From positions 1 to 64,000 of the forward strand of contig JACGCN010000010.1 in NCBI GenBank assembly GCA_014905825.1: a stretch of 64,000 bases of DNA. The letters are read 5' to 3'. This document shows, in pieces, positions 2,287-58,394 of this stretch (positions are counted from its first letter, which is position 1; each line of letters starts with the position of its first letter). The DNA comes from Lyophyllum atratum. Lineage: Eukaryota > Basidiomycota > Agaricomycetes > Agaricales > Lyophyllaceae. The notes beneath the pieces were generated by a model. It had not been told where the DNA came from and ran no database searches. It saw only the letters and a list, made by a program, of their open reading frames with translations. A program made the position numbers and the translations under genes.

Positions 2287-3845
2287 TCAGGGGCATGTCA
2301 TTTCGAATTCTTCCCATAGGCTGGAGTGAGTAAAGTGGGCAATAGATATACGTTGGCCTCCTTCCCAAACCTCAACCTCGTGCTGCAAAATCCTGCCACG
2401 AATGAACACCATATCACCTGGGACGTATTTGAGACGAATACTGAGGCGAGGAATGAACAATGTCCCATTCTTAAAGTTTCCGAGAATTACGAGAACAGCC
2501 CATGCAGAAAGGGGGTCCAGCCGATCAGTGTGGCGGGGTGTGGTCCGATTGAACATAATCGCTCGACCCTCCATGTGGAGCGGGTCGATCGCATTAAGAG
2601 CCTTAATGTGAGGGTACTTTTTCTCAGCTTTTTCCATGAGCTGGCGTAATGCCTGGTATTGAACTGGATCGATGGCATCATACGCTTGATTGACGCGATG
2701 AGAAAGCATAGAAAGTTTATCGATGAGGCTCATCGATTGCCCATAGTGTTGCCCTGACTTTATAAAATCCTTCGAGATGACTGAGTCTTCATTCTTTGGC
2801 AGGAGCTCAATGATATGGATGACGGTAAGGTGTATAAGACTCACCGTGTGACCAATTGCGTGCCAACATTTTACGAGCTTCACAACACCGGTCAGCTGGC
2901 CTTTGGCAAAGACATAAGAACCCAGGGCATTTCTTCCTGCATTGTCTGCTCCTGTGCCCGTGGTAAGTGGGATGCTCCGACCGTAGTGGGTGAGCACTTC
3001 CGTCAGGATTTTCTATTTCCGAGTTAGCTACCGATTATTATGAGAAGGGTGGTGCCATACACATGAAGCGGGACGAAATGTGTTGGGCAGATAGTATAGC
3101 ACATCTACACCGTCACTACTGATCGCACGACGAGGTTGATTGTCAAGCCATTCTCGAACATCCTTGGGGGCCTTGTCCAATGCTAAGTGAGCATAGCGGA
3201 CACCACCACTGGTGGATGTCGCCTTGGAGTAGTCAAATCCAGGGACATGATCTATACCCACTGTCAGTATCGGCATGATTCGTGAAATTAGTCTTACATG
3301 TATTTGCTTGGGTACGTGCAGAGGCGATGTCTCTATTGCTTTGCTTCTTGAAACCTTTTAGGATTTCAGATGTCTTCATGGCAGGCGAAGGTCTATGAAG
3401 ATGGTTTAGGGTTATTAACACGAGTGAATACCATAGTATGTACTTTTTACTGATCCGAACGGATGTATGACCGGTTATGTCTTCCCCAACCTCTTCCGTG
3501 TCGGTCAAATCATCCATCGACGAGTTGGCGCCTCCAAAAACCTCTTCGACGAGCTCATCCCATCGTGTAAGCAATGGGTTTCGTGGTTGCAAGGCGATAG
3601 CGACGTCGGCAAGCGTTGACGCAACATTCATCATATTCACATCGACCGAGTGGTCGAGGGTGGAACCAGAGATGTTCAATGTGTCTGCGATTTGAGCAGA
3701 TAGGGTATCTGGATCAGGTTCTGACGGTTGCATATTTCCGGTGGTTGTGTCGCGTTGCTCGGGTCCATGCTGTTGGACTTTGGCACGCTTAGAGGGCTCT
3801 TTATTATGCGCTAGTGTTTTGCGTTTGGCTTGGGGTGCGACATAT
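2287..3845 (-). CDS. TET/JBP-like 2-oxoglutarate/Fe(II) dioxygenase
   Basis: Nucleic-acid base dioxygenase of the fungal TET/JBP type, which is known to oxidise 5-methylcytosine or thymine bases; the substrate here is inferred. The C-terminal exon (3012-2287) carries the metal-binding HTD triad start, a GNFKNGTLFIPRL strand, the motif YVPGDMVFIRG, the distal His in LQHEVE, and the 2-oxoglutarate-binding Arg in GGQRISIAHF. Upstream exons join in frame: a basic nuclear-signal region (KRKTLAHNKEPSKRAK) starting at 3845, then a segment ending in RTQANT, then LGIDHVPGFDY, ending at 3061 before a 49-nt intron. Two further in-frame introns are likely (51 nt with a GTACAT donor near 3430; 51 nt with GTGAGT near 2820). 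The first exon lies upstream of 3845, possibly at 3.9-4.2 kb, and is unresolved. All visible catalytic residues are present and no internal stop was needed, so it looks functional. Such genes are lineage-expanded in mushrooms and often lie near transposons. Confidence 0.75.
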
Positions 3846-17675: not shown

Positions 17676-19356
17676 TCAGGAACAACAATCTACGGAGGAG
17701 GTACGAGGTCTGAGCACAACGAACGTTAGCAGTTGAAATGATAATAATGATTCCTGCTTGCCATCGAGTGTCAGCGCGCCCGAGGGAAGAGCGCCTTGTT
17801 CTTGCAAACAAAGGTATGCGTAGACAATGGCGACCAAGTTCGAGATCTTCCGGTTCGGAGTGAATGTGCTCGCGGGTTTGATCAACCACTTCGCGAAAAC
17901 GCTGGTACCTATGAGGAGGGTGTGGTCAACATGTAGGAAGCCAAAAACCGCCTCACGCAGCGGCGTGCATCTCCAAATTAGGTAGCTGATACCGCGCCAG
18001 AAATCCTGATGCGTGTGCTCCGAACACCTGCGCCCGGTGTCCTGCTCATGGTGACCAAGCGCCGGGTACGGAACCGGGCACCAACAGGTCCAGCACGCGA
18101 GTATATTACATTGACGATCGTTCATCTGCCGCCTGAACTGCGTGTAATAATGGGAGTCCTTGCTTCGCAAAGGGTAGTCGCAGAAGCGGAGTTGGGTGTG
18201 ATGGTCTTGGTTTTCCTGCTGCAGCACATAGTGCGCAACGCATGCGTCCTTCATAGCCATTACCATTGGTGTGACGTACTTGAGGATCGCATCGCTGGTA
18301 GGAGCCGCAGAAAAAACAGTCGACGGGATGATGGGAAGAATAGGGTCGGGAGTGGGTGAGGAATAGAAGTCTGGAGAAACGGGTGAGGAATGCGCTGCGA
18401 CGGAAGATGGCCCGCTGGAGGCAGATGTGTCCATATTCCATGGGTCGTTGTTCACAATGGGGGAGGAAGGAACACGATAACCAGGGGGGGGTCGAGCTGA
18501 GGTAGGTATTCGAGGCATTTCGGCCTTGGTGGAGAACGGGGTCATAGGTGTGTATCGGCTTCTTGTGTTCGCAGGTGTTTCCCATTCCATCTTGCGCTTA
18601 GCGCGCTGCATGACTGGGGTGGTGACCTGCCCAATCAAAGACGTAAGGGTTGTACTAGGATCGGTAGGGATGTCTTGGGTGCCCTGTGATGTAGAGTCGT
18701 TAAGAAGAGGTACGCATGCCGTACTGTCAAGTGCAAACCTGGCCATGGGCAGAACGGAGGTGTTCATAGAGGTCCGCTGGTTTGTGCGTTACGTCGCATG
18801 GCGTGATTGGACATGGGAGCCTTCTGGTGATGGGGTCACGAGTGAGGAGAAACAACCGTCCTGTGGTATACTGATTAGCGTTTTCCGACTCCGATGAGGT
18901 ATTCATACTCTTACCAAGTACGGCGAATCCTACGATAGGGTCGTCGTTGTGGGTGGCTAGATGATCAGACATGGCATTGTCGTCGGGAAAGCGGGCGTCG
19001 CATGCTGGGCATGTCACGCTAAATGAGATTTCAATGAGCGGCGAAAAACTTCGGTGCCATACGCGACTTACAAGCCTAGGGTACCATTTGAAGCCATATG
19101 AGCGTGAGTACGGATGTCGAGCGTAGAGTGAATGTTTGGAGGAGGTGAAAAACGGGATGAGGCGCAAGAACGATTTCCTCGGAGGATGTCCTTCATATAG
19201 CTCCCGTGAAAAAGAAGAAAAAAGGCCAGCATCATAGTGTCGTCACCTTGTAGAAGTTCTGACAAGAAGGATCAACGCTGTCTGTTCCTCGACGATCTGG
19301 AAGGTGTGGTTGAGCGGATCATCCAGTTCACCGTAGATGCATGTCACATTGAACAT
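17676..19356 (-). CDS. C2H2 zinc-finger protein with Cys/Trp module
   Basis: The first exon starts at ATG 19356 and encodes MFNVTCIYGELDDP...EEQTALILLVR. The following exon boundary is uncertain. Then a chain joins cleanly: ...TLGF|VTCPACDARFPDDNAMSDH (a C2H2 finger with H at a TH end), a 53-nt intron, then RLFLLTRDPITRRLPCPI...HLRSAHGQ (second C2H2 finger), a weaker GTTTGC donor, and a long last exon. The last exon is Ser/Pro-rich, then helical (YVTPMVMAMKDACVAHYVLQ), and ends in a second Cys/His module with CWTCWCPVPYP and GHHE. A similar C-x-x-C-W-x-P...GH...C arrangement ends the neighbouring helicase protein. Located ~200 bp downstream of that helicase gene and on the same strand, so the two probably act together. 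Function is inferred as DNA or chromatin binding. The C-terminal ~60 codons may contain an unrecognised intron. Confidence 0.55.
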
Positions 19357-19558
19357 CTTCTATGCCGCAAAAAACGGAAATGGCATGTGATATAGGAAAT
19401 CGGGGAGGACGGGGGAGCTATTGGCGATTCAAAGTCACGGCAGGTTATTGATAGACCTTGTCGCCTATTTGACGCCCTGGATGTGGGTGCGCTTACAGCT
19501 TTACCAGTAGATCTCGATCATTTGCATTGTGTGCGCACTACCTGTACATGCGGTAATA

Positions 19559-22500
19559 CTATGGATCTACCTCCATGATCTTCATGTCGAGCGTTCTGTA
19601 CACCCGGTAGAACTCGGTGACGAAGCGGACAGGATTCGGGACCTGTGCATGTGAGGTGGGGGCGATCGCAAGCCAGTCCCTTAACTGCGCCGGTGTGTTC
19701 CAATTGTCGATATTCACCCCTACCCTCTCCGCAATGACGTCTAGAACAGGGTGTGCTGCACCTGGTTTGTGAGCAGCGATTATAGATATAACAGTGGGGA
19801 TGATCGACGGGACGGTGGCATGATGCGGACAGTAATCAGTGTTTCCCCCCTCTCCGCGTCCGTAAGATTTGTGACCGAAGTTACCACGAAATGGAATCCA
19901 GCATATGTAGCACATGGGCCAAAAGTCCCGATCATGAAATCGACCTTTGCGGATAATGTCACTCCAAAGCTTGTAATACGGTGTGCGTGTGTGTTGGTGT
20001 GGCCCACGGACTTCGAGATTTCCTTCAACCCAGCAGTCTGGGCACCCGACGGCGACGATTTGGTCGATGGCTTCTTTGAGTTCTTGGAGATCATCCTCTC
20101 CGTTTTGCATTTCTTGAGCGACGAGCTGGCCGTTTGTTGCGACAGACAGGAGCCGCGGTATGACAAGGTTTGTTGATCCCTGCTTTGGAACATGGGTGGA
20201 TTGACCTCTGACTGCTTGGTTGTGATTGATCAATGTGGTGGGTTGGGACTGCGGGGGACGATTCATGGGTAGAGAAGCAAGCGGCGCATCGAATCGTAGG
20301 CGGTCGGGGGTGCGGACGTCGTCCCCAGGGGCCTAATAAACGATTAGGTGGGCAATAGGCATCATAGGGGTACTCACGAGGCTAGCGGCTAAGCAATTGT
20401 CGCAAAGAGGTGCTCCACCAAGCGAAGCACACGAATACGATACGCCATTCACCGGGGCGAACTCTAGAAGTCGGCACATGCGCGTAGTCAGGAATTCGCC
20501 CATGGGTATCAAGCCGGTGTGGTCGCCGCCTTCTTCACTGTCTTCAAAGATGGAAGGCTTCCTTGACCAGAAGAGATTAGAGTGCGCAAGCTTTCCGTCT
20601 CGCCCTGCGCGCCCCACCTCTTGTACGAAATACAAGATGCCGCGAACTTCGTAATGAATCACATGTCGCACTTTGGGATAATCGATTCCCTGTCCAAAGC
20701 ACAACGTCGCAATCATCCAGCGGTCCTTGGGCTGCGTGCCTTCCCGCCACACGTGCGTCAGGTGCGCCTTGATCTTGTCATTCTCATGTTGCTTTTCATC
20801 TAGTGACATTGCGCCAGCATTCCCGATGATATCGCTCACGTAAAAGTTGAATCCAAGCTTTTCACTAAGTGCCCTGGCGTCGGTGGCATTTCTGCAGTAA
20901 ATGAGTCCTCGGTCCTCGGGACCTAGCTCAATGCTATCGGTTAAACGATGTATATGGTCGGGGATGTCATCGCGCTCGGGGACGTGTTCCACGGTGTACT
21001 GAATATTCTTCCGCACACTGGGAGCCCGTATCTCGTGTACGAGATCACGAGGTATCTTCATTCTGAAACATAAGAGGTCGACGGAGTGGGGGAAAATAGT
21101 GGCAGATAGGAACGTGATGGGCTTGCCGACGCTCGTGAGGTACTTGAAGAGATTGAAACATGTTCGGTAGTCTGAGGTGTACGTATGGTGAGCCTCGTCT
21201 ACGAAAATACGCTTGAGCCTATAGCGCGAAGCACGACTGAAATTCAGGAAGTGTTCACTCCCAGCATGTTCGGCGGAAACCAACACTATACGCGACTTGG
21301 CGCCGTCAACATTGGGATATATGCCACCGTCGATGTGTGTAGCAGCGACCCTCCTGTACATATCTTGTACTAGGGCCTTGAGGGGGAGGATGACGATATA
21401 CAGATCCTGTGGGTTGAGGAGGGCAGAGGCTAGAAACGCGAACGTTTTTCCACTTCCAGTTGGAAGTATGGCAATGACATGCCTGCCGCTTTGACAGGCT
21501 TGGATAACGTCAGCCTGCTCGGGACAGCTCCACTTCAGTTCAGTTCCATGGGGAAGCAGTGGTGCAAGGCGCGCGAGGAGCTTGGGATGCACCATAATAG
21601 AATGGTGCCTGGGGGCTCGACTGTTTGGACTTGGTGTTCCACTGGCGTTGCTGGTCAGGAGGGAGGCGATGAAAGACCCAACTGCTTGGAATCCACTGTC
21701 CAAGCGATCGATTAGCGTGGCTGTTAGCTTTTCCATCGACTTGTCCAGTTCTTCCTTGACGGCGTCGACGATGTTATGGGTAATTGATTCAAGATCATCA
21801 AACATGGCATGCCGTGATTGGTCCGTACCCTGAAAATGTCGATGAGAATGGTGAGCTGAGGTGACGGAGGCTTACTTACCATGCTATGGTCCTTTAATTT
21901 AAGTGTAATGGAAGGATGCAACTTCCCAATACATGCGTGCCATCGGAAGCAAACACGCTGATCTGAAGCAATGGCGGTATGCGAGAATTGGGGTAGGGAG
22001 TTGCTGATTTGGAGGGCATAATGGTCCCCTCCAGTCTCAGTATTATGGTTGTAGGACTCGTGGATGGCCTTGAGATCCTCGTCCTCGGCATCAGGGATGC
22101 CAAAGTCAATATGCCCGATGTTCACCATTATAGTGCACATCACCTGCCTCCAGTCACGAATGCCCATGGCTAAGCCGAAGTTTTGACGCGTGAACAAAGA
22201 AAGTGCTTTCGAGAACTGGTCAGTCTTCATGATTCTTCCGTGCTGCACAAAGACGTGGCTTGCGTAGTTTTCGGCGCTAGCGACATCCATCCCACACAAG
22301 GGGGCCATGTGATACGCGGCTGGATAAACGAATCCAAGCACCAGCAGCAGGAGTCGAGATACATGGAAAGCAGGTGCATGGGCGACGCGGCGTCCCCCAC
22401 CGTGAATGTTGACATTTTTGTCGTAAGAGGGCGCGAAGGTGAGGATGTTGTTGAAAATAAACATGTTGCGGCCACCGTCTTTGTTGTTGGCGAATTTAAG

Positions 22501-25224
22501 ATCATCGCACTCGGTCCCTCGTGCACCGCCTCCCCATGTAGTGGAGGCCAGAACAAATATCAAAGCCACGATTTCGTCGAGGAGCCCAAACCACGCCCAG
22601 AGTTCTATAATTATTGATTGTGAACACTTTCCAAGATCCAGAGACGACATGGCCACTTACTAGCTGTGCCGATCGTTTCACCATGGACAGACTGCAACAA
22701 TTCTGTGTCCCGGGAAAGATGGTGTAGTAGACGGTGCTTAAACTTGTCGAATCCATTGCTACTCTCCTTGAATACCGAATAGCAGATGGTGTCTTTCAGG
22801 GGCTGGTCGCGGTACCAATTCCCAGCGCGCTCCGGACTGGGGTCGAGTCTGGAGTCGATTTCTTTAAGAATATCTTTGTATGCGCAGCCGCGTAGGAGGT
22901 TGACAATGAGAGTCTCGGCGCGCTCCAGACCGGTGGTGATGGAGGCATAGAACACGCTCAGCTGCATTGGGAACCCGTCTATACTGAGTACCGCCTTGTG
23001 AATGTCCCAGCCAAATTTTGGGATTCCTGGTTCCTGCTTCGCCAGTGTCGTAAATAACTTCATGTTCTGGCGGAGCGTATTGAATGTATGCACTTCCCCG
23101 TCGTGCAGGAAGGGTTTGACAAATTCGGTGTAACAGCTTGGGCACCATTAACTTTAATTTTGAACGAAAAGGCTGCGGAAATCTTACGCATGATCAGTGC
23201 GACCCGTAATCGACATCTGGCGGAGTATCTCGCAGCAGGCGGACGCACGGAATCCCCACTGCATCCGGTTTATATTGTGAGGGAACTCCCTAAGAGATTT
23301 CATTGTCCCATATTCATCCTTGAGATGATTCGCTATGAGAAACCGAGTGAATGGGTCATCGCATTCGCGCTGCATTAGCTCTTTGCTGGGAATGGATGCA
23401 ATAGACCAGACGCAGAGGTGTATTCCTTTTACAATGTCCGCGTCGGGGGTCGTCTTATCCGCGAGTAGTTGGTGCAAGCTTGTGAGATTGTCAGTGACAG
23501 TGGGATGTAATGGAACTCGGAAGGTGGTCATCGAATCCAGGATATGGCGTACAAGAAAGGCTAGGAAATTGCTGACATAGTCAGCGTAGTGGATTACAGT
23601 GTTTCCTTCCTGTGGCTTGCCAAATGGTTTTGGGTCTATAGTGCTGGAGATCGTTGAGTGAGTGGCGTATGAGATGGGCTGGAGGGACCTACTGTGTTTC
23701 TGGAGATCGGATCAGACGTCGGGTGAGCACGCTGATCTCGGGGAGTCGCGTCATGACTTCATCATAGTAGCACCTAGTGAGCTGGATCATACGGAACAGT
23801 ACGTGCTCGTGTTCCTTCGCAGAGAGCGCCGATGTGCGCAGCTGTCCGAGATCCACCCCAGAGAGAAGGCAGTCCCACTCCGTCCTCATGAAAATAATAT
23901 GGCGCGCATGCGTGTTGCCAGTAGGGGTATACGTGGCAGGAAGTTCCCCAAGGCCGATGGATTTGCTGTGGGCCAAAATATCAAGAAAAACATCTATTTC
24001 GACCTGTGGTGAGTGCGTGACCTCTATAAACACCCGTTGGTGACGAATCTTGCTGAGGGCCTGACTTGGAACGATCGAGTAGAGTCGCTCGGCTGGTTTC
24101 CAGTGCGGATGGGTGCGGAGGCAGTGCTCATTAAAGCGTTTCTTCCCAGAAAACACTGGCTGGCCCGCGGAGCATGACGGATAGCGACACTTGAATCCGT
24201 CGACAACTTCGATACCTTGAAACGGGGGGATAGGATGTGACGGGAGTTTCACCGGATGATGTGCTTGTAGCTGCTTCAAAAGGTGCTCCAAAATGTCTTT
24301 CCCTGGAAGTCTGCGCTCTGACGGTAGCTTGCGCTGTGTCCCGCGAGCATGGGCGAGGGCGTGTGGATGTATGCGGGAGAAAGGGACCAGAGAGCTGCAG
24401 ACGAGGCAGACTATGCGGTTATACAGCGGATCAATGTATATACTGAACCGCGCCAGTTGTTTGCGAATGGTTTCCGCCACTTCTTCGGGGACGTCTACAT
24501 GGTGTGATGCATCCTCCAATTCATCTTCGTCTTCCCCTCCGGAAACTTCTTCTTCATCCGTGGGTGGAGGACTTTGAGGTTCGCCATCATCGCTAGAACC
24601 ATCCCACAAGGGAGAGATGTTGACTTCGCAGCTGGACGAGGCGTGAACGTCTTCTTCCGGGGTAAGACGATGGTCGCCGGAGATCTCCATTTCGATGTCA
24701 CTAGTAGCTCTGCTCCCCGACGTGTCCGCCGGTTCTGGCATAATTTCCATGTGGACGTATGCAGTTTCGCTGGTGGTTGGGTCACTCGTATCAGTTTCCA
24801 TAGTCATCTCGGGGGCGCTGGCCTTCCGAATTTTGCGAGCTGGTTTCGAATCTAACGGAGGATCGTCATAGAGGGGAGTGTCTGGTGGTGGATGGACTTT
24901 GGCTTGATTTAGTTGGTAAAGTCGAAGGAAGTTGAGTCGTGAGTGGCGCGGATCCCCGCATGGGCAGGGGAGAAGTCCCGTTTCCTCGTCTCTATAAACA
25001 TGTATCGTCTCTCCTGGAATAAACTAGTCAGACATTTGCTCTGTCACTTGCGTTACACCTGCATACCGTGGTACGTGAATGTGTTGAAGGTGGAATGGTA
25101 GTTGGTGTTGTGCGCCTTCTGGCTCTGTTGGTTGAGCTTGGGACGCTTGCAGTTGAGCTTGGAGCATTGAGATCTACAAAAATATGGGCATAGAATATCG
25201 ATACGCAGTTTGAGGTCACTTACG
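19559..25224 (-). CDS. OrsD domain - tyrosine-recombinase-like - RecQ-type helicase fusion
   Basis: Eight exons: (upstream start)-25224, 25173-25059, 25013-23693, 23643-23188, 23136-22661, 22604-21880, 21829-20378 and 20332-19559. All phases agree, giving at least 1,770 aa from ATG 25167; an in-frame 5' exon upstream of 25224 is likely. Domains in order: CPCGDPRHSRLNF motif and acidic region; an OrsD-type (DUF3505-like) zinc region with CLVC...H...H and CRYPSC...H...H; a helical part. A tyrosine-recombinase-like domain follows with TTWGGGARGTE (first Arg), GIRDWRQ (second Arg, with the usual box-II His replaced), and YNHNTETGGDHYAL (His and presumed Tyr nucleophile). A DEAH helicase follows: LPTGSGKTF, VDEAHH, FLSATI, QEVGRAGRDG, with a Cys-rich end. 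The tail has CPDCW, CYICWIPF, GH and CPHH. No frameshift was seen. Related OrsD/RecQ proteins are common and often subtelomeric in mushrooms; the recombinase reading is mine. Confidence 0.75.
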
Positions 25225-25343
25225 AGCGCGGCATTGTGCTTTAATGGATCTAAACCGACAAGCTTTGCCAGCGTAAGGGCTTGTATGCGTGGAAAAAGGT
25301 TGGTAGGGGGATTTTGGGCGACACGGATATGGGTGAGTCAACA

Positions 25344-25370
25344 AAACAAGCTGAATATTCAACTTTGTTT
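25344..25370 (+). promoter_or_regulatory. 27-bp imperfect palindrome, copy 1
   Basis: Arms AAACAA and TTTGTTT flank the perfect palindrome TGAATATTCA. It lies about 180 bp upstream of the first presumed start of the helicase-recombinase gene. An identical 27-bp copy lies at 25656-25682, within a longer diverged duplication of roughly 60 bp. It could be an operator, a recombinase site or a relic; this is inference from symmetry and position. Confidence 0.55.
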
Positions 25371-25655
25371 TGGGTCTTGTTTGCGTGAAGGGAGGACGGA
25401 AGGCTGCGTTGGGCTACTCCTTGACTCCTATGGGAAGTTCAACAAGTCAGATGCTGTTGCACAGAGTCGCGTACGCATTGTGCATCGGGACTCAAGTCGA
25501 AGACTTGCGAAAATTGTTGATCGAGTGCTTGTATGCGTAAAAAAAATGAGGTATGAAGACAACGTTACCTAGTATATAACGTGGCGTGATCAAAATGTAG
25601 TTTGCGAAGGGCGGCCTAACAAATTTGCGGCGAGACGAGTATGGGAGAGTCGGCG

Positions 25656-25682
25656 AAACAAGCTGAATATTCAACTTTGTTT
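25656..25682 (+). promoter_or_regulatory. 27-bp imperfect palindrome, copy 2
   Basis: Identical in all 27 positions to 25344-25370, while the flanking sequence has drifted. The spacing between copies is 312 bp. Identity of the symmetrical core against diverged flanks suggests constraint. Confidence 0.55.
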
Positions 25683-26240
25683 CGTGTCTTGTTGCTGAAC
25701 ACAGGGGGAAAAGACACGCTTGTGTGTTGGTTGACTGCTATGAAAGGTTGGCCGATGGGCAGAATCCGATTGCACTGGGTGGTGTGCGGCTCGTACAACA
25801 CGCTTAGAGTTGGGGGTTTGGTCGAAAATGTTGATTGAGGACGTGATATAAACCTGTGACCAAATTAAGAACGCCTGGTTCCTTATTAGGAAATTTGGAA
25901 CCTCACAACCTGGAGTGTAAAAGATGCGCAGCGTTGGCGTTTTTTTTGACGCCCTCGTTGTGGGTGCGTTTCAACCGTGTTGGGGCTTGCCAAACCTCTA
26001 CCACGCTGCCTACGAATAATTGGGCGGCGTACTTGAAGATGTTGATTGATGGGGTGGTCTATATTTGGTAGATCAACCTGACTGCCATATGCGGAATCAC
26101 GGCACCTGAGTAGGAACGCGTCATTAACCGTTCAAACGGAAACTGGAATGGGTCCTGGAGAGTGAAAAAGAGTGCCAGGACTTCGCAATACTCAGGCATG
26201 GTGGTGTTGATGGCTGGCGATGTCTATTGATTAGAATCAA
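25683..26240. other. Non-coding, diverged repeats
   Basis: No gene is supported. Short segments resemble the preceding 300 bp: a GAAAATGTTGATTGAGGACG stretch near 25830 is echoed near 25510 and 26035, suggesting several decayed copies of one unit. Confidence 0.4.
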
Positions 26241-26630
26241 CGAGTCGAGCGCGTTGTGTACAAGTGCTTACATGCTCAAACAGGAAGGAGAGACTAAGAT
26301 TGCCAGATTGTATAGCTTCCACATATGCTGTGTTCCCAATTTTTACGTGTATATGGTCCTGAATGCGCCTCAAAGCGAACAGTGTATACGCCAGAGGTTA
26401 GTGGTTGACCCCCCGGATGTTGTAGAGGCATTCGTGCCAACCCCGGCGCATTGTTTACAAGTGTTTACAGCCCGAGTCGACAACAGGATGCCAGATTATG
26501 TAGCTTCCACATATGCTGTGCATCTAATTTTTGCATGTAGAGGGTCCTAGAGGTACATAAAAATAAGCAGTACATGACACAGAGCTTAGTGGTTGACCCC
26601 CCGGGTGTTATTGAGGGATACATGCGAGCA
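26241..26630 (+). repeat. Two tandem copies of a ~195-bp unit
   Basis: The units at about 26248-26440 and 26441-26632 share several blocks in the same order: TTGTNTACAAGTG, CTTCCACATATGCTGTG, and TTAGTGGTTGACCCCCCGG followed by a shared tail. They differ by indels and are non-coding. Possibly the remains of a larger array. Confidence 0.8.
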
Positions 26631-26699
26631 AAGTGCCCAGATCACATGATCACGTGACTCGTCGACAAGTGCGAGGCGTGCCATTTCTACGGTGCTACG

Positions 26700-27530
26700 G
26701 CGCCCTAGCAGCATTTCTCTAAGCAGCATTGCTGTAAATGGGTGATATTTTTCACAGCGACTTTATTTGTGTGTCGCGGAGCGTCGACGTTTTACGGGAA
26801 GGTAAGTCGACAATTATTACGGAGCCTCAGCAACCTATATTGCGGAACATGACTCTATTTCACGGAGTATTTTTCCCCCACTTTGAACAGCATATATAAC
26901 CTTACATTTGGATGCATGTGAACATAAAATGTTGTCACACCAATTACATTTTCCCATATACGTGACAGGTGGGGGCGGGGGGCAAGTGCGGTGTTGTTTT
27001 TTGATCGTGTAAAACACCGTGGGAATGCTTTCCCCTTGATTTCTCCACAGCCCTTCGGTCGATTTTCGAGATTTTTAGATATTCGGGTAGCCACCGAAAA
27101 TTAGCATGGGTTAGTGGCCAGAAATACTTGTAAAATATGTCTCAACAAATGTGTATATGCTAAATTACACTATGATTTTATACTGCACGTGATCCTTTGA
27201 AAATTGTCATGGAACAAGGGGAATTGGGCTCATATGCATAAAGTTGGAGTTATAACCCATTAATGGGACCCTAATGAACCCAAAACATTGTGTATGCCGA
27301 AGGTTTTTACCCTGAAGGTCGTGAATGAGACGGGGATATTTCGGCAACGGCCGTTAGGCCTAACGGCACGGCTACAATTACTAGGAGGTTATGTTGATAG
27401 ATAGTTACGGCAAGTTTTATCAAAGCAAGGATGTGGTAAGAAAGAAGAGGGTAGAAATCAACAAGGACACCCAAATGTTATGCCATGTTAGTATTTGCAT
27501 ATGTTTCAACAGGTGTTACAGTCCTGGAAA
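26700..27530. other. AT-rich non-coding stretch with one strong palindrome
   Basis: No coding potential was seen. It contains the 18-bp perfect palindrome GCCGTTAGGCCTAACGGC at 27350-27367. Confidence 0.6.
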
Positions 27531-27688
27531 GTGTTATGCTACCCTAGTGTCACCATATGAGTGACATTTATCAATCAGTTTCAGAAATTGCCAAAATCAT
27601 TTTTGAAGGGGCTCAGAAAATGGGGGCTTCAGATCCAAAATTGTCACAAAAGTGTTATGCTACCCTAGTGTCACAGTATGAGTGACAT
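27531..27688 (+). repeat. Two copies of a 37-bp motif
   Basis: GTGTTATGCTACCCTAGTG followed by TCAC..TATGAGTGACAT occurs at 27531-27567 and 27652-27688, differing at two positions and 121 bp apart. Each copy has inverted GTCAC/GTGAC ends around TATG. Confidence 0.85.
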
Positions 27689-27770
27689 CAGATAGGCAGG
27701 TGATAAGTGTCATGCTTCAGATCACATGTGTTACATTAGATCATTTCTGACAGATAAGGCCTTGTTGAGC

Positions 27771-28720
27771 TCAAACCTGGGGGGTATAGTCTGAAAACTT
27801 GGATTCTACACCTCTTCAATAGTCCATTGAAGCTGGTTATAAATTGGTGCTATACCCCCCTGGTTTGACAGGGCTAGACACCAATCAGTCAATCTCAGGC
27901 CTATATCAGGCAAGATTTGACTGAAAAGGGTCTGGTGAGCTCAAACCTGGGGGGTATAGTCTGAAAATGTAGATCCTAGACCTCTTTTATAGTGGCTATC
28001 CACTCAGCATAAATTTGTTCTATACCCCTCTGGTTTGACCATGCTAGTCACTGATCAGTCCAATTTCAAGTGATTTGTGACTGATCAGGGCCTGTATCGC
28101 TCAAACCTGGGGGGTATAGTCTGAAAATGTAGATCCTAGACCCCCTTTATAGTGCCTTCACACTGGTCATAAATTTGCGCTATACCCCCCAGATCTGAGG
28201 ATGCTAGACACTAGAGCAGCTGATGACTATAAGCCTAAGATGACGTCAGTCAGATCTTGGAGGAATGGTCTGAGAGTATATGTCCTAAGCCAGTTTTACA
28301 TTGTGAATGCAGCCATCATATTTTCAGACAATACCCCCAACATCCCAGCCTCGTACGCACCATCGAGTCTTCAATCTTGCAGCTTGGAGACGGAACAGCC
28401 TCCACGGGTGTCAAACCCGGGGGGTATAGTCTGAAAATGTATATTCTGGACCTCCTTTGCGGTGCGGTCGCAGCCATCATAAATTCGGACTATACCCCCC
28501 GGATCTCAGAAATGCCGACAACGCGGGCGGCGACGGCGAGGGCATCTTGACAGCTATCAAGATTCTGAGTTGACCAAAAGATGCGGGGTACCTAAAAGCC
28601 CCCCCTCGAGCATTTACAGCCTATACCCCCAACATCTGAGAAGGCCAGGGCCAGATACGTTGTTTTAAATTCACTCGACGGCCTCCACAGCTCCGGGATC
28701 CGGGGGGTATTGACAAAAAA
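27771..28720 (+). repeat. ~165-bp satellite array with inverted arms
   Basis: At least five units lie head to tail. Left arms TCAAACCTGGGGGGTATAG start at 27771, 27941, 28101 and 28411 (the last with CCCGG). The matching right arms CTATACCCCCCTGGTTTGA lie about 80 bp later (27850, 28020, 28180, 28490). A diverged unit sits at about 28248-28346, and partial units reach to 28710. Within a unit the arms are reverse complements of about 19 bp, so each unit can fold as a stem-loop. Between the arms, AGATCCTAGACC and CATAAATTTG blocks are also conserved. There is no coding capacity. It resembles an array of a palindromic, MITE-like unit or a satellite. Confidence 0.9.
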
Positions 28721-44766: not shown

Positions 44767-44848
44767 CAACTTGTCTCTTGTCAAGGACAACCACGATCGC
44801 AAACTCGCAAAAAGTCGACTATATATTCCTCAACCATGACCATGGTCA

Positions 44849-45267
44849 ATGGCTCCTATGAGAGGGTATAGCGACCTTGCCACGCTCGAGCCGGATGAAC
44901 GGGGGATCGTCGTATCCTCGCGCCCCTGTGAAGAAGATGGTACGTCTCTATCCTTTTATTTTTTCATCCCCTGTTGACATGCTTTCCCTCAGCTGAGCCG
45001 GAAGAATGGAGGGTCGAGGAATACGTGCAGGAGGGATGCATCGACCAAGAAGTCATTATAACTCAAGCCTTACGGCGGCATTTCGTCGGTGAGTTCGATT
45101 CACCATCTATTGTTTTGCCTTCTCTTCATTTCGGTTCTGCTCTCCTCCACGTTCTGCCAGCGTTTCGTTCTCGTGCCCACGTCTATTTTCATTATGTGGT
45201 TCATTGTCCAAGGCACATGGCTGACGACTTCGTGTTACTGCGAAATTCAGGCTCTGTAGGAATATGA
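44849..45267 (+). CDS. Possible small three-exon protein (97 aa)
   Basis: Exons 44849-44939, 44993-45088 and 45161-45267 join with consistent phases over introns of 53 and 72 nt (GTACGT...TCAG and GTGAGT...CCAG). The product starts MAPMRGYSDLATLEPDERG, with an acidic middle (EPEEWRVEEYVQEG). Family not recognised. Could equally be a relic of another duplicated gene. Confidence 0.35.
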
Positions 45268-46004
45268 CACACGTCCAGCGGCGACGCACGCTCGAAGGCG
45301 TGGGACGAGCGTGTGATCAAGGTTCCGCTCATCAAGTCGCGAATGCGTGCGCCCCTCAAGGAACCAAGCACCTCAAGAACGCTCTCACGGCCGAAACTCA
45401 AATGCCAATCGCACACCCTATCCTCAGCGCATCACTGACCGCACCTTCACCCTCCCCCTCACCCACCGAAACCTAATACTATTCCACGTACGTTGTGCTG
45501 CCAGAGTAAATGGCCGCGGTGTCGGGAGGAAATTTTGGGTCCACCACTTCATGTAGATGTTCGTGACAGGTCTCGATGATTCGTGCGGGAAGGGGAACCC
45601 CTGTGAGGTCCAGCACGAGGTCGGTACATCAAGTAATTGTAGGGCCGTTATGAATACCATGTTCACTATCGAACCCTTCCGAATCCTGGAGCCATTCGTT
45701 GTGTATTTGCGAGTTTGAAGGGTAGAGGGTCCGCCGACGTAGACACAATCGGCATGTGATACCCAGACCTCAAGACTCAATTTAAGACAGGTAACTGCTA
45801 TGGAGAAAACGCCATGTGTTATCGAGGAGGATATTGGCGTGGGACTTACAATGGGTTCGTGGATCTCTGAGTTGAGATGGATATTTTGCGAAACGCTATA
45901 GTCCGAAATTTGACGCGTGAATACCAGTAACTAAATGGCCGTTGTGATGAGTGATAAATGAGAGTCCTATGATGATAAGGAGTGTCGTGCGGAAAGTTGG
46001 GCCC
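45268..46004. other. Possible minus-strand gene fragment
   Basis: A minus-strand open segment at about 45775-45490 (SLEVWVSHADCVYVGG...IRKGSIVNMVF) can be joined upstream over a GTAAGT intron to a short segment near 45900-45850. No start or full model could be fixed and no family was recognised. Confidence 0.25.
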
Positions 46005-55187: not shown

Positions 55188-56135
55188 TCCCGAGTACCCT
55201 TAACCTCTGCCCTTCGGGGTACGTTACCCTGTGTGTGGATAATTGGCAGGCTGCCAGCCATTGCGGCCCAGCCCCCGTCCAACTTGGCGCCTCGGCCTTC
55301 GTTGGGAGCCGGACTTTGTCCGGTACCAGCCCGTTAGGGCAGCCACAGTGGGCTCAGTTGAGACCGCATACGAAGTGCGGCTCGGTCGTATGCGGGGTTG
55401 TAACCCCGCTAAACGCTTCCTGCTTCTGGCTTTGCAAGTCGAAAACCGGTGTTCTTATGCCGGGGAATAGAATGTAACCCGGGACACGTCGCGGCGAGAG
55501 CTCGGAGATACTCCCTTGTAACCAAAAAACCACCTTTGATCGTCCTCCCTCACATCATGATTTAGCTACACGCTAAAGTACACATCGTACGTACTACGGT
55601 TTCTGCAGATTCATGCAGACGGTACTAACCTACCGTGTCCAACTAGAAAGTGATTGTACCGGAACCAACCGGAACTAGTCGGAGAAAGGCGTAAAACCCT
55701 AATCCTAACCGTAAGTACATTCAAGTAATTGAAATACACAAGTCTAACCGACAGTATCCAACAGCTAACTCTAACGCTAACCTAACCGGTTAACCGCGTT
55801 GGAGATAGGCGTTAGTGCAGGTAAGCAGTCCTTATTCAGATTCTACCAGAATTCACCTCAGAATGGAGTTGGGGTGGGACGTTGTTCATCGACGTTGAGA
55901 CTGCTACAAGCGCTTACGCCTTCGGCGATACTTCGGATCTTTACATAATATCAGGTGACTTCGGACAGGTGCCGGATCACCGGGTATTAGTCAAGATGAT
56001 TGAGTCATCGGCCGCCGAGCCGGCCCGCTTACGTAGCGGGCTTTATTAAGCGGCCCTGACATCAGTCAGCGTGTTTCACACGCCTGTCAAAGTCTGACTT
56101 TGGCGGTCCTGAGTAAAGATGGTTGCTACGCAACC
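55180..56135 (+). repeat. Tract of at least 14 perfect short hairpins
   Basis: Stems and loops found by reading: 55180-55194 CTCGG; 55217-55229 GGGTA; 55309-55323 CCGGAC; 55329-55340 GCCC; 55364-55395 CCGCATACGA (10 bp); 55392-55409 GCGGGGTT (8 bp); 55561-55577 TTTAGC; 55602-55619 TCTGCA; 55619-55636 ACGGTA; 55917-55927 CGCC; 55995-56009 GATGA; 56023-56041 GCCCGCT; 56056-56069 CTGAC; 56069-56083 GCGTGT; 56088-56102 CAAAGT; 56121-56135 GGTTGC. Most have loops of 2-6 nt, and several abut. Non-coding. Confidence 0.85.
55694..55789 (-). repeat. Degenerate telomere-like motifs
   Basis: AAACCCTAATCCTAACC at 55694-55710 and CTAACTCTAACGCTAACC at 55765-55782 resemble degenerated CCCTAA (TTAGGG) telomere repeats inside the hairpin tract. 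Confidence 0.5.
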
Positions 56136-56291
56136 TTTACAGTAACATGTGCCACCAGACAAAAAGTTTTTTGATGGTCAGCGTGTGAACCGATTGTTAT
56201 CAGGACCTGAAGAGCATAAAAGCGAAACAGGTTTGGCATGGGAATCCCCCATAGCCTGTTGTCCTGTACGCAGCCCTCTTCATCAGAGAAT

Positions 56292-56381
56292 CCCCACAAC
56301 GACTTTCCAAGGTTGTTGTTCATCCAACCCTAACCCCCACAACGACTTTCCAAGGTTGTTGTTCATCCCACCCTAACCCTA
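56292..56381 (-). repeat. Two 43-bp repeats containing CCCTAACCC
   Basis: Units at 56292-56334 and 56335-56377 each contain ACAACGACTTTCCAAGG and GTTGTTGTTCATCC, and end with ACCCTAACC. The second is followed by CCCTAACCCT (56371-56380). They form the last codons of the NB-ARC gene. Confidence 0.85.
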
Positions 56382-58394
56382 CTTCAAGCTTCTCGGCCTC
56401 ATTCAAGCGGCCCTGACTATGATACGTCAACGCCAGGGTTTCCATACTTTGAAGTGTCTCGTGGTGCTCCTCGCCAAGTATCCTTTCCCTCGCATCCAGG
56501 ACTCTCACTGATAGCTTCTCCGCTTCTTCAAATCGACCCAGTTGGCGATATGTCGTTGCCAGATGTGCCATAAACTTGAGAGTGTAGATATGTTCGTCGC
56601 CAAGTACCCGTTTCGCCACCTCGGTCACTGTAACCTGAAGCTTCTCGGCCTCCCAGAATCGACCGTTTTCGCAGTATACCACCGAAAATATTCCTAATAA
56701 AAAGAATGGCATGTCCTTGCTGTATCGCAGTACAGCATCAACCTGGGGCTGAAGCATCCGGCGTAACCTCACGCCTTCAAGATCATAGAGTGGCGGTATC
56801 GACTGTGCCACCAGATAGTGTGCGCATGCTTGGATGGGAAGGTCGTTCTCGGCCATTGTGCGCATCCAGGTGTGTACCAGTGGATGAATAGAGAACACCA
56901 TATTCACGTCATCAAAGTCTATGAGTGAGTATGACCTCACGTCAGCCACCATTTCTTGAAAAAGATATGGGTCCCAGTTCCCGTCAGGCGCCAGGAAGTT
57001 ACTGAGGAAATCCGCCAGTGGTACCAGCTCCTCCCATTCACTACTGGAATGTACTGCGGCCGAAGATGCCTCGAACATTTCCTCGGAAAGACCATCGTGA
57101 TGCAGGAATGAGCAGATTCGCAAGAATGTGGCTGCTACTGGCTGCAGAAGGTCTACGCTCATTTGCCAAGTTGTATGCACTGTCCACCGGTAATCATCAT
57201 GCTTCTGTCCGGGCTCTTTCTTCCAGAGCTCGACTCGGTTCCTCTTATATAGCTCGAGGTAGCTGCTGAGATTCCCGGTCTTTGTAATGTACGCGCCGGC
57301 CTGTACAACTGCGAGAGGAAGACAACCTAGCTCCTTTACGCAAAATCGCGTCAATGATCCACTGTGAAGTGATCGCAAATCGGTACTTACATTCACAATT
57401 GTGGTGGCTTGGTCGCGTGTATCGTAGGTGACATTATCATTTCGAGAGACCATGCCTAGGAGGAGATCTCTAGCCTCCTCCTCGTCCAAATGTGTGACCC
57501 TGAAGCCTGCGTTCGGCGCGTGGATACATAATTCTGGGTTTCTCGTCGTAATGAGGATATTACCATGAGAACAGGGCGGGAAAAATTGGGAAAGATCTAC
57601 AGTGATGTCGTCCGCGTTATTGAATAGGATAAGCCATTCCTCGCATTCGTTGACAAGCCAGCGCAGCGCGTCGCCTGCTGATTTGCCAATCTTCTTGGCT
57701 AGAGAGATGTTTTCTAAATCTGTGTTGATGGTGTCGATAGTGCTTGCGTCGATGAAAAAGACCTGGGAGAAGCTGAGATCGATCATGACTCATGAGCTCG
57801 ACGCACTTTCGAGAAGGGTTGAAGTTGACACACCGTTGTGTCTCAGCGCATATTTCGACAAACCGGTATCCTGTCTGAGTCTTTCCTACTCCTCCGAGCC
57901 CGTACAGAACACAGACGTGCCGGTTACCAACAGCACTCAGAAAATAAGCCATCATGTCATTGAGAATATTCCGTCGACCAGTAAAGAGATGGGTTGGGGG
58001 TGGGCAGCGTTTATAATTGACCTCTGCATAACTGATACATCAGAGGCAGCGCGGTCAGAGAGATCCGAGGCATACCTGTCGAATCCCGATTCATTGCAGC
58101 ACCAGCTGGTGCAGAACCGTAATTCACGATGTAGTCGCCGCCGACAGCAATGAACGTGCAATCATGTTGACTGAAGTTATGCGCGAGAGGGAAAAAATTA
58201 ATCGTTTCAGACGTGGGGCCACTGTTCGCAGAAACTGCGCCTGAAGCGAGCGACTGGCTAGTGATCACGGGCACTGGGGAGCTGTCGGGTGAGTTTGCAG
58301 CTTCGATCACTATGCTCCCGTTTGTTCGCGAGTGAGGATCGTGTGCCGCTTCTGGCGCATTCGCACCCATACACTGAGCCATATCTATATCCAT
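56320..58394 (-). CDS. NB-ARC/TPR STAND protein (NLR-like), C-terminus replaced
   Basis: Fungal NOD-like signalling NTPase. Exons 58394-58076, 58023-57834, 57772-57391 and 57333-56320; three introns of 52, 61 and 57 nt (the last stays open if unspliced). The product is about 634 aa. An N-terminal ~90-residue Ser-rich part ends in FSQHDCTFIAVGGDYIVN, a Gly/Asn motif common before mushroom NTPase domains. CPPPTHLFTGRRNIL leads into the P-loop LYGLGGVGKTQ, then FFIDAST, WLILFNNADD (Walker B), ILITTRN and ELGCLPLAVVQAG (GLPL-type), then a winged-helix-like region. TPR/kinesin-light-chain repeats follow (YTLKFMAHLATTYRQLGRFEEAEKL, ETLQSMETLALTYHSQGRL). The third repeat stops after EAEKLE and runs into 43-bp telomere-like repeats, ending about 20 codons later. 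The motor looks intact; the sensor array is truncated. Confidence 0.8.

Follow-up and report, generated by a model that had tools for sequence, protein, structure and literature searches.

The first 64,000 nucleotides of contig C2 (JACGCN010000010.1) of the mushroom Lyophyllum atratum (assembly GCA_014905825.1, 64.8 Mb in 151 contigs), hereafter called the window, carry a gene in which a domain that is very probably a tyrosine recombinase (YR) is flanked by an OrsD-like zinc module on one side and a RecQ-type helicase on the other. This assignment rests on conservation, spacing and predicted fold and not on the significance of sequence profiles. The DNA upstream of several gene copies shows a fixed and reused joining point, and this suggests a role of the protein in moving or rearranging DNA close to chromosome ends. 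As an overall explanation, we think it reasonably probable that this is the gene of a mobile element residing near contig ends.

A preliminary description of this DNA had proposed the gene and its reading frame, ending at 25224. Gene and frame could be retained, and the start codon is now placed at 25234. All seven introns (GT-AG, 45-56 bases) restore one frame, as had been stated, and the 1773 codons contain no stop. Pfam recognizes the helicase (DEAD at residues 1135-1281, E 5e-14, plus Helicase_C and ResIII), and the family profile matches RecQ/BLM structure chains at E 5e-42. The OrsD match (PF12013) is below the Pfam cut-off in the window protein (22.3 versus 26.6 bits) and above it in the homologue P0053 (36.4 bits); it is found at E<=5 in 18 of 24 family members. 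Pfam matches no family between residues 322 and 1134. The three motifs from which the recombinase had been proposed are all present in exon 6: TTWGGGARGTE (residues 812-822), GIRDWRQ (938-944) and YNHNTETGGDHYAL (975-988).

These motifs belong to what is, judged by sequence, a conserved YR active site with predicted catalysis. In a joint alignment of 72 rows (P0071-P0075 excluded; C46b and P0032 are duplicates of each other, and several Lentinula rows are nearly identical), R819 and K853 occur in all 72 rows, E822 in 71, R943 in 69 of 69 (three gaps), H977 in 70 of 71 and Y986 in 71 of 71 (one gap each). In the 32 rows of clade 1, R819, E822 and K853 are invariant, as are R943 (30 of 30, two gaps) and H977 and Y986 (31 of 31, one gap). 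Clade 2 (40 rows) has R819, K853 and Y986 throughout, E822 and H977 in 39 of 40 and R943 in 39 of 39 (one gap). Thus, the Arg-I, the box-II Arg and the His-Tyr end recognized at the outset are nearly invariant and do not vary freely among homologues. Among 24 whole proteins from both clades, 11 of the 12 invariant columns fall in the middle domain and one in the helicase.

Six reference YRs (XerC, XerD, FimB, FimE, lambda Int and Cre) have R, K, HxxR and Y in common. In all six, nine residues separate His/Trp from Tyr, equal to the spacing from H977 to Y986. The R-to-K distance is 34 residues here versus 23-28 in the references, and R-to-H is 34 versus 22-23; K853 is located six residues past a predicted strand in the exon 6 model (confidence score pLDDT 80). 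The usual box-II His is indeed absent, as first reported: its position is variable (2 His in 40 rows of clade 2 versus His in all six references). P0075, a more distant environmental protein, retains R, K, R and Y and has Arg in place of His. The catalytic domain has a YR-like fold in the predicted structure of the homologue P0025, for which XerH and Cre are the best matches and the 11 top structural entries are all YRs. The match to Cre and XerH begins at residue 322-323 of P0025 and covers the part encoded by exons 4-5 as well.

The proposed placement of a recombinase between the OrsD and RecQ parts therefore gains support from conservation, from the His-Tyr spacing and from the fold of a homologue, and it can be extended to two clades in mushrooms. 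A search with the middle domain (residues 490-1020) returned 31 of 4133 candidate proteins, the closest being P0001 with 85% identity over the searched region. A second copy in the same genome, at C46:1263517, shares 22% identity with the window copy over the YR core; in a set of three sequences, the family profile matches it at E 2e-37. It lies upstream of a helicase frame that is 34% identical to the window helicase. When this copy served as query, 39 further proteins were obtained (7990 candidates scored). The middle domains fall into two clades which are about 20% identical. Wherever a host is named in either list, it is a mushroom-forming fungus, which we take to belong to the Agaricomycetes; a few hits are environmental proteins. 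A third search, with a 24-sequence profile and aimed at ascomycete telomere-linked helicases (TLHs), scored 7990 proteins, of which 15 reached E<=1e-10: two were already known, P0071-P0075 are new and have the YR domain, and P0076-P0083 are without it. One clade-2 homologue, from Mycena, carries the annotation tlh1. Alignment A1 omits P0016 and P0026 of the 31 proteins and A2 omits P0004, P0006 and P0028; A3 holds 24 of 70 proteins and A4 12 of 72.

The YR exon is under purifying selection. Between the window and C78 copies, the ratio of nonsynonymous to synonymous divergence (dN/dS) is 0.07 for this exon (dS 0.68) and 0.18 for the helicase exon. It had been argued from frame restoration that selection probably keeps the gene; this was right, and the ratio for the YR exon is the better evidence. 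The intact window copy has a sister on C13 (locus L002) with 98.5% DNA identity over 9 kb, in which one in-frame stop interrupts the YR exon.

Identity between the window and C13 copies sets in abruptly at position 27385 of the window, which lies 2.15 kb upstream from the start codon, and the same element end is found on C86. Related ends were found on C46, C79, C67 and C10 (subfamily 2) and on C78, C71 and C79 (subfamily 3). In all three subfamilies the end reads CCT, then AGTA, and then a hairpin with its stem starting within 20 bases (hairpin z -2.34 in the window, -3.8 and -3.2). The YR gene is the first recognized gene inside this terminus, reading inward. Clade-2 copies have no CCTAGTA terminus within 6-7 kb upstream. 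Ten junction records are all joined directly after CCT, and represent nine loci because C67 and C10 have one flank in common.

Targets without the element could be found for seven of the nine loci. The C61 copy of the window flank reads CCT followed by GCAG at the joint, and ends 1.1 kb from a TTAGGG array. Empty sites are provided for C2 by C61; for C13 and C46 by C41, C125 and C10; for C78 by C13 and C46; for C71 by C13; for C79:11384 by C78 and C71; and for C67/C10 by C73, C50 and C76. The count leaves out C79:14793 and C86, where the search gave only a 420-base repeat and partial paralogues. In all seven cases, representing six target sites, CCT is present at the point of change, for which the probability by chance is about (1/64)^6. 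Thus, joining needs or leaves a CCT that is common to element and target, and CCT behaves as would the overlap in a recombinase reaction.

Two further features were noticed. At C71:49907 (L015), a terminus with two strong hairpins (z -6.4) directly follows CATCCTA, in surroundings that otherwise resemble C78; it may be a fourth element end, unrelated to the others. The repeat of about 420 bases at C86:1203-1622 (L034), with inverted ends of about 38 bases and at least six further copies at 95-99% identity, looks like a small inverted-repeat transposon.

The joints support mobility at one end of the element only. In none of the eight distal stretches (seven loci, 11-43 kb) was the distal half of the target found downstream of the element, and neither an element 3' end nor a second direct repeat was found in the distal stretches searched. 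A 25-base piece from the distal half of flank A has seven copies in the genome at <=1 mismatch, none of them on C46 or C13; on C46 it is absent, at the same stringency, from 126 kb beyond the junction. All ten junction records are directed to whichever contig end is closer, and YR copies are located 4-120 kb from contig ends. Contigs with the YR gene have no exact four-unit TTAGGG array; such arrays occur on four contigs, none with the gene. The one-sidedness may reflect replacement or copying of the chromosome tip, very long elements, or later rearrangement that hides the other joint.

Distal breakpoints were also considered as stacked tip replacements. This was dropped for C13:1768133, C46:1213643 and C79:4133, which begin with similar terminal sequence. 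Since, in addition, frames just past the C13 breakpoint look by eye like those of a KDZ transposon, these three are counted as probable nested transposons. C61 was dropped as an allele of the window flank, as window positions 44800-46000 have no match on it. That segment is repeated at C2:1667458, toward the opposite end of this contig (100%), and on C76 (99%) and C13 (94%). The 651 bases at 55686-56336 share 97.8% identity with the sequence immediately preceding the C61 telomere array and are, by sequence, an interstitial copy of telomere-adjacent DNA.

From the protein anatomy, the conservation and the joints, we infer the following course of binding, cutting and unwinding. The zinc and core-binding-like regions would hold the terminus with its hairpin and, in another subtelomere, a CCT. 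Y986 would attack beside the CCT overlap, assisted by R819, K853, R943 and H977, and strands would be exchanged at the CCT. The RecQ motor would then open or extend the joint, and the distal chromosome tip would be exchanged for the element-bearing tip, or copied from it by break-induced replication. We consider it quite likely that the element end is made by the YR-helicase enzyme. Exchange or copying of the tip is suggested as the usual outcome because only one end has been found joined. It would also explain the uniform orientation, because the opposite one would give an acentric or dicentric product; compared with ordinary two-ended insertion, we give it slightly less than an even chance.

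Several results weigh against the recombinase assignment itself. No YR family was matched by Pfam in the window protein or in 24 homologues (among the best 25 of 45 families), a profile search of PDB gave no YR hit, and hhalign comparisons with the six reference YRs and four controls were not significant. Foldseek with the whole 982-residue model gave 176 matches at E<=10, none of them at E<=0.001 and the top ones unrelated, and the structural Z of the P0025 match is within reach of helical models by common arrangement. Of the profile and structure checks that had been proposed, the former did not yield significance, and the homologue model is YR-like. If the middle domain were not a YR, the motif match would be coincidental and the domain conserved for another reason. 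We regard this as very improbable given that R, E, K, R, H and Y are conserved, the box-II His excepted, and that the best structural entries are exclusively YRs. In addition, the pattern R..E/K/R/H+9Y, which was defined only after having been seen, did not recur in 200,000 shuffles of labels nor in 200,000 shuffles of places among the 20 most conserved of 554 columns.

The other alternatives accept the joints and differ in what made them. The main one is a giant element of the Starship kind, with the YR-helicase as its captain. It would integrate at CCT as a circle or as an excised element, and its 3' end would be located outside the contigs or the searched stretch. The position of the gene as the first recognized one, 2.15 kb inside a fixed terminus and reading inward, the short target motif and the several copies all agree with this, and Starships are YR-driven and up to about 700 kb long (PMC12134995, accessible part). 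However, the distal target 25-mer is missing from the 126 kb past the C46 junction, the outward orientation of all ten junction records is not demanded by ordinary integration, and there is no DUF3435 match; we consider this explanation unlikely. Still less probable is that subtelomeres are spread by the host at CCT microhomology, through break-induced replication or end-joining, the YR being a domesticated, non-catalytic DNA-binding or structural module. The genome has many duplicated stretches near contig ends, and three bases are a plausible microhomology. Yet the breakpoint is at the same base, beside a hairpin, at nine loci and in three diverged subfamilies, and catalytic residues that a non-catalytic module would not need are kept over two clades of about 20% identity.

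The YR-helicase shares traits with several known systems. In Starships, the gene next to one terminus is that of a YR captain and is read inward, and a short target motif is used; we know of no captain fused to a helicase. The present gene resembles this with its start 2.15 kb from the terminus, and differs by the helicase fusion, the one-sided, outward arrangement and the lack of DUF3435 among the Pfam matches of the window protein at E<=10. Helitrons encode an HUH Rep tyrosine nuclease and a Pif1-type helicase in one polypeptide, have a hairpin near the terminus, and follow the CTRR and A-T insertion rules. A tyrosine enzyme with a helicase in one polypeptide and a terminal hairpin are common to both; here, however, it is YR and RecQ, Pfam at E<=10 matches neither HUH Rep nor Pif1 helicase, and neither CTRR nor insertion between A and T is seen. 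Telomere resolvases (TelK/TelN/ResT) are a weak match only; C61 terminates in TTAGGG repeats and so gives no hint of hairpin telomeres.

For the remaining comparisons, we rely on the accessible parts of the cited papers. Starships are described there as elements of Pezizomycotina (PMC12134995). CryptonF elements combine YR with GCR1_C, and the main text of PMC3212892 does not contain the word "helicase". Like Cryptons, the present element is eukaryotic and would be YR-driven, with a short sequence in common at the joint; unlike CryptonF, it has a RecQ helicase, an OrsD-like region and a terminal hairpin. Pfam at E<=10 does not match GCR1_C, and a second direct repeat was not found. Some Cryptons encode a C48 peptidase (PMC3212892), and P0031, a relative from Lentinula raphanica, has an added C48 (Ulp1) peptidase domain (PF02902).

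Fungal TLHs have been known since 1998 (reference listed in PMC10532341). Our comparison, made by description only, covers Ustilago UTASa/UTASb, which have RecQ and OrsD parts (PMC10532341), Metarhizium recQ, which matches OrsD (PMC11457142), subtelomeric RecQ genes of Agaricus bisporus var. burnettii, with no domain beyond the helicase core according to one study (PMC7473861), and the TLHs of Magnaporthe and Fusarium. The window family resembles them in its RecQ-type helicase, OrsD region, several copies and probable subtelomeric setting, and differs, as far as TLHs are described, by the YR domain. No YR is described for TLHs in the literature searched, which left out most subscription papers and preprints, and the main texts of PMC7473861, PMC8381367, PMC12857005 and PMC7593156 lack the word "recombinase".

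Table. Features of the YR-helicase element and its flank in the window (aa, amino acids).
Feature	Position	Strand	Basis or remark
OrsD-YR-RecQ gene	19559..25234	minus	8 exons, 1773 aa, no internal stop
Exons of this gene	25234-25224, 25173-25067, 25013-23693, 23643-23188, 23136-22661, 22604-21880, 21829-20378, 20332-19559	minus	
OrsD-like zinc region, aa 236-321	24169..24426	minus	Pfam PF12013
Exons 4-5, N-terminal core-binding-like part of middle domain, about aa 481-790	22661..23643	minus	aligned in 31 homologues
Exon 6, putative YR catalytic core with R819, E822, K853, R943, H977, Y986	21880..22604	minus	conservation, homologue fold, exon model, dN/dS
Exon 7, RecQ-type helicase core, aa 1135-1444	20378..21829	minus	Pfam DEAD and Helicase_C; family profile
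Exon 8, C-terminal region with Cys/His-rich stretch	19559..20332	minus	no Pfam family there
Downstream frames with C2H2-like stretch	17679..19242	minus	open reading frames; weak zf-C2H2 matches below cut-off; homology range
Stretch homologous to other copies	17749..27385	minus	98.5% to C13 (18389-27385); 74% to C71/C78 (17749-25170)
Fixed element 5' terminus, CCT then AGTAATTG..., with hairpin	27332..27385	minus	sharp border common to C13:1759131 and C86:1024
Flank, inner side of element	27386..28400		second copy on C61, 100% (nearest per cent) over 1015 bases

The frames downstream of the gene are possibly a second gene, mostly within the part common to subfamilies 1 and 3. Distal to the YR-helicase gene, a TET/JBP-type oxygenase frame (2290-3012, minus strand; Pfam Tet_JBP, E 7e-12) possibly belongs to another mobile element. 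A frame for a tetratricopeptide-repeat protein is located at 56323-57789 (minus strand; TPR_12, E 1e-22).

RecQ-like genes are found at the chromosome ends of several fungi, and their role is unsettled. It is a tentative and rather doubtful proposal that the YR-RecQ fusion represents a new class of eukaryotic mobile element, which would, in a single site-specific step, replace or copy all DNA on the distal side of a CCT, and that fungal TLHs are recombinases of the same class. If the explanation given here is true, a recombinase site tied to a reused DNA joint would mean that these "telomere helper" genes actively reshape chromosome ends, and the variability of fungal subtelomeres would be partly explained.

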